Below are positions 14,086-17,357 of a DNA stretch of 64,000 nt, one piece after another (position 1 is the first letter of the stretch; each line of letters starts with the position of its first letter). The notes under the pieces are model-generated. The model did not search any database. It saw nothing but the letters and a program-made list of their open reading frames with translations, and had not been told where the DNA came from. This DNA comes from Parafrankia sp. EUN1f (GTDB taxonomy: Bacteria > Actinomycetota > Actinomycetes > Frankiales > Frankiaceae), in the NCBI RefSeq assembly GCF_000177675.1, contig NZ_ADGX01000006.1:1-64000 (forward strand), read 5' to 3'. A program made the translations under genes and the position numbers.

Positions 14086-15957
14086 GTGGCCACCAGACGT
14101 TGGTTGCTGCTCGGCGTGGTCGCGGCGGGGCTGACGCTGAGCTCGGTCGGGCTGCTCGGCGTGCTCGCGACGGAGCCCTTCGCCAGCGCCGACGAGGCAC
14201 AGCACACCGCGTACGCGGTGGAGGTCGGCGACGGGCGCTTGCCCGAGCTGGACACACCGGTACGGGCGACCATCCCGGGCATGCCCGGCCTGCCGGCCGA
14301 CTGCCGGGTCGACCCGGCGCAGGTGCGCCGTGCGGCCTCTGACTGGGCGGCACAGACGTCGCTGCCGGCCTGCGCGGCCCGGGACCGCGCCTTCATGACC
14401 TTCGACGTCATCTACACCGCGAACCATCCGCCGCTGTTCTATCTGCTCGAATCGGTGCCGCTGCGGATCGGCCGGTCGGCCGGCCATCCGCTGGCCGGTT
14501 TCTACGCGGCGCGGATCCTCAACCTGACGGTGGGCTTTGCGGCGCTGGTCGCCACGGCCTGGCTGGTGCGGGTGCTGGTGCCCGGCCGGCCGGATCTCGC
14601 GGTGGCCGCGGCGGCCGTTACCGGTGCGATGGGCGGGTTCATCGCCGTCACCACCCAGGTCTACAACGACGCGCTCGCGGTGGCCCTGATCACCGCGGCG
14701 ACCGCGGCGACGCTCGTGCTCCTGCGCCGGGGGCCGTCAGCGCGGACGCTGCTGGCGGTGGCCGTTCTGGTTCCCGCGGCGGCGCTCAGCCGGGCCAGCG
14801 GCGCGATCGCCGCGTCGCTGCTGGTACCCACGGTCGGGGTGGCGGTCGGGCTCGCGCTCGCGCGTGGCGCGGGCCTGGGCGTGGGCGGACGTTCGACGCC
14901 GGGCCGCCGTCCGACACCGTGGCGCAGCGCACTGGTGGGGCTGGCCGCCGCCGTGGCCATCGGCCTGCTGACGGTGGCGGCTGCCGGCTGGTTCTACCTG
15001 CGTAACGAGCGGCTGTACGGAGATCTGACCGCCACCGGACGGATCGCGTCGATGTTCCCCACCGGGATCGAGGAACGGTCGGCCTGGCAGGTGGTCACGT
15101 CCGAGGACTTCTGGTGGCTGGTCTACCGCGGCCTGTTCGGGCGCCCGAAGCTGCTCCTCGGCTGGCCCTATCGGATCGCCGTCGGCGTCGGGCTGCTCAC
15201 CCTGGTGGGCCTGATGGCAGCCGCCGTACGCGCGGGCCACGCCCACGCTGTCGCCCGCGGTCGCGGTCGCGGGCATGGGCGAGGGCGTGGGCGTGGTGCC
15301 GGGCGTGACGCCGGGGACGGTGCCGCGCGGGCCCGGAGCACACTGGTGATCGATCTGGTGTGCTGGCTGGTCGCCGGCGCGCAGGCCCTGATCGCGGTCG
15401 CGACGCTGGTGGGTTTCGTGGCCGCGGGCGGCGCGTCGTTCGCGCGCTACCTGCTGCCCGCGCTGCCCATGCTGGCCCTGGCTGTGGCGGCGGGATGTTC
15501 CGCCCTTCCGCTGGCCCGCCGAGGCCTGCCGACGGTGCTGGTGGTCGGGGCACTGTGGTGCACCACGATCGTCATGCTCAGCCGTGAGCTGGCCCGGCAT
15601 GACCCGAGCCTGGCCGACCGGGACCTGCTCGGCCGGCTGCGCGGCGCCATCGCGGCGACCGCGTTCAGCCCGAGCGGCGCGTCGCTGGTGGTCGGTGTCC
15701 TGCTCGCCTTGGCCGCGCTCGGATTCGCCCTGCTGGCCCTGTCGCTGTGGATGCTTGCTACCGCCGCGGTTCCCCGCTGGCAGGTGCGCCCTGCCCGCGG
15801 CGCATCCGGCGCCGCTCCGGTAGATGGGAGCATGGTCCCGGCCGCGAGCGGTTTCGGAGCCGTTCGCGGCGGGTGCGGTGAGGGCGACAGACAGGGCGCC
15901 GGCGAGGTCGTCGGCGAAAGTGTCGGCGAGGTCGTCGGCCCACCCGGTAGTGCCTGA
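14086..15957 (+). CDS. GT-C type membrane protein with an acquired antisense tail
   Basis: A 623-residue multi-spanning protein of the DUF2142-like GT-C group. The first outer loop has ASADEAQHTAY (DE at 36-37, His40), and NHPPLFYLLES follows, as in the genes at 6611 and 31774. A Gly/Arg/His-rich loop (about 385-410) separates the two membrane halves. The last 40 residues, from about MVPAASGFGAVRGG, are encoded by a DNA segment (15830-15950) that is a diverged copy of the 3' end of the reverse-strand glycosyltransferase gene at 16218, read from the opposite strand. The natural end was therefore probably near residue 575-580. GTG 14086 has no ribosome site and lies 22 bp after the dehydrogenase stop. 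Confidence 0.78.
   Translation: MATRRWLLLGVVAAGLTLSSVGLLGVLATEPFASADEAQHTAYAVEVGDGRLPELDTPVRATIPGMPGLPADCRVDPAQVRRAASDWAAQTSLPACAARDRAFMTFDVIYTANHPPLFYLLESVPLRIGRSAGHPLAGFYAARILNLTVGFAALVATAWLVRVLVPGRPDLAVAAAAVTGAMGGFIAVTTQVYNDALAVALITAATAATLVLLRRGPSARTLLAVAVLVPAAALSRASGAIAASLLVPTVGVAVGLALARGAGLGVGGRSTPGRRPTPWRSALVGLAAAVAIGLLTVAAAGWFYLRNERLYGDLTATGRIASMFPTGIEERSAWQVVTSEDFWWLVYRGLFGRPKLLLGWPYRIAVGVGLLTLVGLMAAAVRAGHAHAVARGRGRGHGRGRGRGAGRDAGDGAARARSTLVIDLVCWLVAGAQALIAVATLVGFVAAGGASFARYLLPALPMLALAVAAGCSALPLARRGLPTVLVVGALWCTTIVMLSRELARHDPSLADRDLLGRLRGAIAATAFSPSGASLVVGVLLALAALGFALLALSLWMLATAAVPRWQVRPARGASGAAPVDGSMVPAASGFGAVRGGCGEGDRQGAGEVVGESVGEVVGPPGSA
15830..15950 (-). pseudogene. Duplicated C-terminal fragment of the GT4 gene at 16218
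   Basis: On the reverse strand this segment encodes ADTFADDLAGALSVALTA and NGSETARGRDHA, matching ADAFADDLAGALSAALTA and NGSETARGRDHA of the intact GT4. The two DNA copies (here and 16285-16390) align over about 105 bp with few changes; this copy also has an extra GCG and a duplicated GTCGTCGGCGA-type stretch. It is read as sense for the tail of the gene ending at 15957. Confidence 0.8.
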
Positions 15958-16047
15958 GGTTCGCACTTCACGAACGCGGTCGGACCTCCGAGCGCCCGGT
16001 AGTCCCGTAGTCCGGTAGTCCGGTTTGGCGAGTCGCAAGAGTGAACC

Positions 16048-16073
16048 ATTTTGGTCGTTCCGACGACCGAAAT
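16048..16073. repeat. Intergenic palindrome, 11-bp stem
   Basis: ATTTTGGTCGT pairs with ACGACCGAAAT around TCCG, with one G-T pair. It lies between convergent genes ending at 15957 and 16218. The GGTCGT/ACGACC core is shared with the palindromes at 37954 and 42869. Three copies of an 8-bp GGTAGTCC-like unit lie just before it (15998-16021). Confidence 0.65.
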
Positions 16074-16217
16074 CCTTCTTTCTTGCGGGTCGTCAGGCGA
16101 CTCTGCGCCCCTTTTGCCCCTCTTGAGGGCTACTGCTGGTGCTGTGCGGCGGCGCGGGATCCTCGACGGGTGGCCGTGCGGGTGGGGTTCGCATTCCGTC
16201 AGGGCGGCTCCGCCGGT

Positions 16218-17357
16218 TCAGCGCGCGACTCGCTGGTAGACGGCGGCGGTCAGTTCCGCGGTGCGCCGCCAGGTGAAGGTGCGGGCGTGGTCACGGCCCC
16301 GAGCGGTTTCGGAGCCGTTCGCGGGTGCGGTGAGGGCGGCGGACAGGGCGCCGGCGAGGTCGTCGGCGAACGCGTCGGCCCGCCCGGGAGGCACCAGGCG
16401 GACGCCCGCCGCGCCGCCGACGACCTCACGCACCGCGGGGATGTCGGCGGCGACGACCCTGGTCCCGGCGGCCAGCGCCTCCAGCGGCGGTAACCCGAAA
16501 CCTTCGTAGCGGGAAGGGAAGCACAGCACCGCAGCTCCGGCCATCACCGAACGCAGCTCGGCGTCGTCCAGGTAGCCGAGGGTGACGACCGCCTCCGGTG
16601 GCAGTCCGGCAGTGTCCAGGGCGGGGCCCCAGCCGGGCGGCCCGACCAGCGCCAACGGCGGGGTGTCGCGCTCGGTGGCGCGCAGTCGCCGCAGCGCCTC
16701 CAGCAGCGCCGGGAGGTTCTTGCGCGGTTCCGCGGAACCGACGAACAGCAGGTAACGCTCGGGCAGGCCGTGGGCGGCGAGCCAGCCGCGGGCCGGGGCG
16801 GCGGCGGTGAACCAGGCCGGGTCGACGCCGAGCGGCGTGGGGGTGACCAGCTCCGGGGCGAGCTGGTAGGCGGCGATCACCTCGTCGGCGACGGCCTGGC
16901 TGGGGGTCAGCACCGCGGCGGCACGGCGCAGCCCGCGCGGAACGAGTGTCGTGTACCGGGCGGACGCCTCCGACACCGTGTCGGGCGTGCGCAGGTAGGA
17001 CAGGTCGTGCACGGTCAGCACGCCGCTGGCGGCGGCCAGCGGGCCGAGCACGAAGTTCGTCCCGTGGATGATGTCCGCGGCGCCGGTGAGCCATTCGGTC
17101 GGCGGGTGCTCGGAGCGCATCCAGGCGTCCTGCAGCAGCCGGGCGGGGACGCGGCGCGCCGCGGGGCGGACACCGGGCGGCAGCGCGGCGGCGAGCCCCG
17201 CCGAGCCCCGCCAGGTGAACGCGGTCGCCGCCACGTCGAGATCGAGCTGGTCAACGCGGGCCAGCTCGCCCAGCCCGGCGAGCAGCGCCGCTGTGTAACG
17301 GCCGACCCCCGTGCGCGGCCCGAGCAGCGGGGTGCCGTCGAGAACGACCCGCATCAC
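16218..17357 (-). CDS. GT4 family glycosyltransferase
   Basis: A 379-residue cytoplasmic GT-B enzyme of the mannosyl/glucosyltransferase type. The N-terminal half starts VVLDGTPLLGPRTGVGRYT; VHDLSYLRTP and the hinge YLLFVGSAEPRKNL follow. The donor-binding motif is PSRYEGFGLPPLEALAAGT, with the EX7E pattern. GTG 17357 and ATG 17354 are adjacent; the choice changes one residue. It is the last gene of the reverse operon beginning with wzm, 28 bp after the preceding stop. Its 3' end has been duplicated at 15830-15950. Sugar specificity cannot be read from sequence. Confidence 0.9.
   Translation of the reverse strand: MMRVVLDGTPLLGPRTGVGRYTAALLAGLGELARVDQLDLDVAATAFTWRGSAGLAAALPPGVRPAARRVPARLLQDAWMRSEHPPTEWLTGAADIIHGTNFVLGPLAAASGVLTVHDLSYLRTPDTVSEASARYTTLVPRGLRRAAAVLTPSQAVADEVIAAYQLAPELVTPTPLGVDPAWFTAAAPARGWLAAHGLPERYLLFVGSAEPRKNLPALLEALRRLRATERDTPPLALVGPPGWGPALDTAGLPPEAVVTLGYLDDAELRSVMAGAAVLCFPSRYEGFGLPPLEALAAGTRVVAADIPAVREVVGGAAGVRLVPPGRADAFADDLAGALSAALTAPANGSETARGRDHARTFTWRRTAELTAAVYQRVAR
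16285..16390 (-). repeat. Parent copy of the duplicated glycosyltransferase fragment
   Basis: This part of the GT4 coding sequence is the source of the imperfect direct repeat at 15830-15950. The copies are in the same orientation, about 455 bp apart. Confidence 0.8.

Follow-up and report, generated by a model that had tools for sequence, protein, structure and literature searches.

A conserved convergent overlap probably gave a Parafrankia membrane protein its antisense C-terminal tail and was later resolved by duplication

When genes of G+C-rich bacteria overlap antisense over a long stretch, the overlap is often put down to an error of gene calling. In a survey of gene overlaps, the convergent orientation was the only one with plausible real overlaps longer than 60 bp (54/178), and such long overlaps were mostly conserved in very close species only (Palleja et al. 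2008, PMC2478687). The known long convergent overlaps arise by 3′ extension after stop codon loss, and the same appears to hold for the gene pair described here. It differs from them in extending over 276–357 nt in two genera, in being bounded by one rare-codon stop, and in having later been dismantled, leaving relics. Protein sequence read off the antisense strand of an older gene is also known from overprinting, as in laoB (PMC5810103) and in pop, opposite ompA (PMC7103648), although these are separate antisense genes, whereas here it is just the tail of a membrane protein that already existed. No known system comes closer than the long convergent overlap, and what is new here is how deeply the overlap is conserved, that a rare codon forms its stop, and that relics remain after separation. 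Among open-licence papers, a literature search turned up no account of a prokaryotic overlap being resolved through duplication.

The window, a 64,000-nt stretch of the 9.35-Mb genome of Parafrankia sp. EUN1f (G000), contains two convergent, non-overlapping genes that lie ~260 nt apart. The forward-strand gene (14086–15957, from the ORF list) encodes a putative GT-C-type membrane protein of 623 aa, classed as GT-C by the first-pass annotation, whose orthologues match DUF2142, DUF6541 and PMT weakly. No Pfam family passes the cut-off for the window protein itself, and the best Foldseek matches of its model are the GT-C enzymes AglB, OST, AftB and PMT, all of them weak (best E 0.018). The reverse-strand gene (16218–17357, from the ORF list and Pfam) encodes a GT4-family glycosyltransferase of 379 aa with an intact 3′ end and a glycosyl transferases group 1 domain (PF13692, E 3.7e-24; PF00534, E 1.9e-23). 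The locus was compared in 21 genomes, 16 of them from the Parafrankia group (g1) and Frankia (g5), with three genomes of g6, which we take to be Pseudofrankia, and two of g2 serving as outgroups. The Parafrankia group is represented by G000 to G005, which include Parafrankia colletiae Cc1.17 (G001), Parafrankia soli NRRL B-16219 (G003), the sister genome of the window species (G004) and Frankia sp. EI5c (G005); g5 takes in F. torreyi CpI1, F. gtarii, Frankia sp. QA3 and Ca. F. nodulisporulans. GT-C of the window species and GT-C of its sister, which was assembled separately, are 88% identical.

The first-pass annotation of this DNA had noticed that a piece of the GT4 gene recurs at the 3′ end of the GT-C gene, and the recurrence proved to be strong. 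A repeat search pairs 15822–15869 with 16277–16324 at 88% and 15869–15927 with 16321–16379 at 93%. As a single blastn alignment the direct repeat spans 121 columns at 86% (E 3.6e-35), and it scores 134 bits, compared with at most 34.6 bits among ~1,500 left/right flank pairs from other loci of the same kind. The two members are a diverged antisense copy of the GT4 3′ end that constitutes the GT-C C-terminal tail (15822–15948, forward strand) and its GT4-side counterpart (16277–16394, reverse strand). The copied stretch is ~125 bp long, where ~105 bp had been claimed, and is preceded by ~30 nt (15802–15831, forward strand) that are probably a remnant of the antisense GT4 stop region within GT-C. 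In the window itself this remnant is short and weak by blastn (E 0.05–0.16); in the sister genome the piece just before the main relic, CTCAGCCGGCG..., is 81% identical over 31 nt to the P. soli GT4 stop region (E 0.001).

As the annotation had also proposed, the copy supplies the end of the GT-C protein: it forms the last ~42 codons of the ORF and reaches its present stop codon (15955–15957, forward strand), where the relic meets a dispersed repeat. The copies are offset by 455 in the first block, which places GT-C codons exactly opposite GT4 codons, in the same register, and past a small in-frame tandem repeat (GAGGTCGTCGGC) the relic copy goes on to about 15948. On the reverse strand the relic can still be read as FADDLAGALS and GSETARGRDHA, within an ORF at 14737–16038, just as first described. 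The tandem repeat of the tail, GEVVGESV (15904–15939), varies in copy number: the window species and its sister differ there by 24 nt. The sister carries the same arrangement of relic and repeat, with the genes again ~260 nt apart, and an assembly error as the source of the duplication was ruled out by this independently assembled genome. Among the genomes compared, the ~125-bp copy was found in these two only.

The window GT-C tail is homologous, in the same frame, to a tail that relatives encode in overlapping genes. GT-C overlaps the GT4 3′ end by 276–357 nt in 11 genomes (ten g5 Frankia and Frankia sp. EI5c), in each case with codon exactly opposite codon and with no GT-C stop before GT4. 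The GT-C genes of all 11 stop at one homologous place, with the ending “...GGERLQGR*” and variants of it, and their tail (VDGGGQFGGAPPGE...) is what the GT4 C terminus TFTWRRTAELTAAVY gives when read antisense. In the window, the segment equivalent to the ancestral 276-nt overlap is 16218–16493. In the GT4 tree, EI5c is the closest relative outside the pair formed by the window species and its sister (support 0.903). Since relatives carry a homologous tail without the duplication, the overlap predates the duplication, and the duplication took the overlap apart. We therefore consider it highly probable that the GT-C tail stems from an ancestral convergent overlap with GT4 that was later resolved by duplication in the lineage leading to the window species and its sister. 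Judged from sequence, the overlap is conserved across two genera and is not a gene-calling artefact, as indicated by the shared stop site and by a rare codon there in 16/16 genomes. Two genomes of the window's genus, G002 and P. soli, have neither overlap nor relic. The g6 genomes lack the overlap yet are sister to the window's genus (support 0.924), so the overlap was either lost in g6 or gained twice. An ancestral overlap in g6 was considered because the G014 tail AAVDRKDGAG is suggestive, and was set aside when its DNA, compared with GT4, showed no more than short matches expected by chance. The window also contains an antisense ORF of 150 codons (16041–16493, forward strand) that lies opposite the 3′ end of GT4, is likely a spurious gene call, and ends exactly at the ancestral GT-C stop position.

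Traces of the same tail were found elsewhere. GT-C of P. colletiae ends in 45 nt of GT4 3′ end, the GT4 stop included, although ~2 kb separate it from its own GT4. The 45 nt match GT4 of P. soli and of EI5c at 93% identity (E 4e-15) and the P. colletiae GT4 at 82%. Four stand-alone GT-C paralogues (loci L114–L116 and L123), from F. torreyi, F. gtarii, Frankia sp. AiPs1 and F. tisae, match the antisense GT4 3′ end, with the best match in F. tisae (E 3.7e-17 over 148 nt) and the weakest in AiPs1 (E 1.1e-4 over 21 nt). No GT4 was found near these four paralogues in a search of the fetched flanks. P. colletiae and the Frankia paralogues carry separate relics of one antisense tail.

The ancestral GT-C stop is the antisense of a single GT4 leucine codon in the motif GFGLPPLEA, which in the window is TTA (16491–16493). 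Of the 16 Parafrankia-group and Frankia genomes, 15 have CTA here and one, that of the window, has TTA; in the outgroups without the overlap (three g6, two g2) it is CTG in 5/5. In most of the 16 GT4 genes it is the sole CTA or TTA among ~50 leucine codons and the only in-register antisense stop. Four-fold degenerate GT4 columns, counted over 15 genomes with the window genome left out, number 162; 25 are invariant, and just one of these ends in A, that of the GFGLPPLEA leucine. Beyond this codon the antisense frame is open for 180–396 codons in 14/16 genomes, the remaining two having 36 and 90 open codons; counted from the GT4 stop, the open frame of the CTG genomes runs to 225–475 codons. We infer that the CTA is held as a firewall stop against several hundred codons of GT-C read-through, the codon being kept because its loss would add hundreds of residues to GT-C.

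Between the genes lies a truncated copy of a ~400-bp intergenic dispersed repeat (15956–16214), lacking ~40 nt on its left and ~100 nt on its right, with a conserved hairpin core at 16026–16095 (fold z-score −4.87; consensus fold of 16 copies). The hairpin is present across the 16 copies with little covariation. The window genome has dozens of copies (the others at L072–L110), and its sister has about three times as many core matches. These copy numbers are pattern-search counts: the core pattern, with both hairpin arms counted, matched 60 times in the window genome and 190 times in the sister, and gave zero matches in P. colletiae, G002, P. soli, EI5c and G009. The copies are mainly intergenic, and 14 of 40 lie between convergent genes according to a rough gene call. 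Rfam returned no match for the hairpin, and a literature search for this repeat in Frankia found nothing. Small dispersed intergenic repeats of the REP/MITE-like kind are short, non-coding and multi-copy and contain hairpins; the window repeat resembles them in being short, non-coding, mostly intergenic and multi-copy and in having a conserved stem-loop.

The position of this repeat between both copies of the duplicated stretch raises the possibility that it is a mobile element making long target-site duplications, with the relic as its footprint. Long flanking direct repeats were found at 0/39 of its other copies (best 27 bits, vs. 134 at this locus), which indicates that such duplications are not a regular product of the repeat and leaves nothing independent to tie the insertion to the duplication. 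The window copy is also truncated at both ends, and the sister's copy at this locus differs in extent, and we regard a mobile-element origin of the relic as extremely improbable. Alternatively, GT-C would have possessed a stop of its own until, in the window lineage, a local duplication of GT4 DNA provided a new C terminus, as the first-pass annotation had concluded. The antisense GT4 origin of the tail and the local duplication both stand, the ~125-bp copy is confined to the window species and its sister, and the lack of both overlap and relic in G002 and P. soli would fit a late origin. The order of events, however, comes out reversed. The orthologue check found a homologous, in-register tail without the duplication in EI5c and ten Frankia, which contradicts the duplication as the tail's creator; the annotation had named such a tail in distant relatives as evidence against itself, and what was found comes close to that, in a same-genus strain and in ten Frankia whose genes overlap. 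The separate relics in P. colletiae and the paralogues, and the persistence of the ancestral stop in the window GT4 as TTA, point the same way and make a newly created tail very unlikely.

Other alternatives concern what is being conserved. The rare leucine codon might serve GT4 itself, through translation speed or regulation, with the overlap merely making use of it. In favor of this, CTA or TTA is still present in the five genomes (G000 to G004) that do not use it as a stop, where it could reflect recent overlap loss or may have another reason; but the same leucine is CTG in the five outgroup GT4 genes, and third positions near it vary freely, so we consider a role in GT4 alone unlikely. It is quite unlikely, too, that selection maintains the antisense-derived tail as a functional extension of the C terminus. 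Synonymous variation in GT4 is lower in the Frankia overlap than upstream (ratio 0.763, 95% CI 0.587–0.955), whereas the same ratio in g6 and g2 is 1.10, with no reduction, and the tail may thus have been weakly constrained while overlapping. The window species and its sister have also kept the frame despite the in-frame 24-nt indel, and their tails differ with a dN/dS of ~0.43 (0.055/0.127), a value that rests on only nine changes. Against a function, the released paralogue tails have dN/dS values of 0.92–1.01 (0.164/0.162, 0.287/0.302 and 0.255/0.278), as for unconstrained sequence, compared with ~0.37 (0.061/0.165) for the body. AlphaFold gives GT-C residues 564–623 a pLDDT of 32–38, predicting disorder, and the length and end of the tail differ freely between species. 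Once released, the tail most likely serves no function and is carried along as baggage. The tail of the Frankia stand-alone GT-C paralogue seems to have evolved neutrally since leaving the GT4 overlap.

An origin of the tail in the convergent overlap suggests the following history. An ancestral GT-C would have lost its stop codon, so that its reading frame continued into the antisense strand of GT4, in register 123:321 (named as in PMC2174442). In this register a GT4 codon yields a stop only if it is TTA, CTA or TCA, codons that this G+C-rich family seldom uses; one CTA leucine codon ~91–118 codons in would have become the GT-C stop and would then have been kept as a firewall. Before the window species and its sister split, a rearrangement would have duplicated at least ~125–170 nt of the shared segment, so that one copy became the GT-C end, a repeat fragment came to lie between the copies and GT4 remained whole. 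GT-C would later have lost ~40 nt within its copy. Duplication and repeat insertion may have been one event, for example the fill-in of a staggered break that captured a repeat fragment. Presumably both proteins would come through unharmed only if the rearrangement duplicated the stretch they share, and plausibly no other kind is seen for the reason that it would harm the C terminus of GT4.

At 16289–16330 there is a short block in which the window GT4 is closer to its own relic than to the sister's GT4. Differences between the GT4 genes of the two species cluster, with 10/43 in one 57-nt bin, and nine sites set the sister's GT4 apart while none sets the window's apart. This pattern suggests relic-to-gene conversion in the window GT4, but several of the sites look derived in the sister. 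We see as evenly balanced the proposition that the firewall leucine codon has been held over the divergence of two genera as its neighbor's only stop, that breakage of the overlap was survivable only with duplication and left neutral antisense fossil tails, and that the window GT4 was possibly overwritten in part by its own relic.

The locus offers a readable history of a protein that gained, and then kept, an antisense tail. A stop codon appears to have been maintained even though this burdens the neighboring gene with a rare codon, and the overlap appears to have been broken in at least two separate ways, with the tail surviving. Selection on antisense tails, and on the stop codons that bound them, thereby becomes testable.
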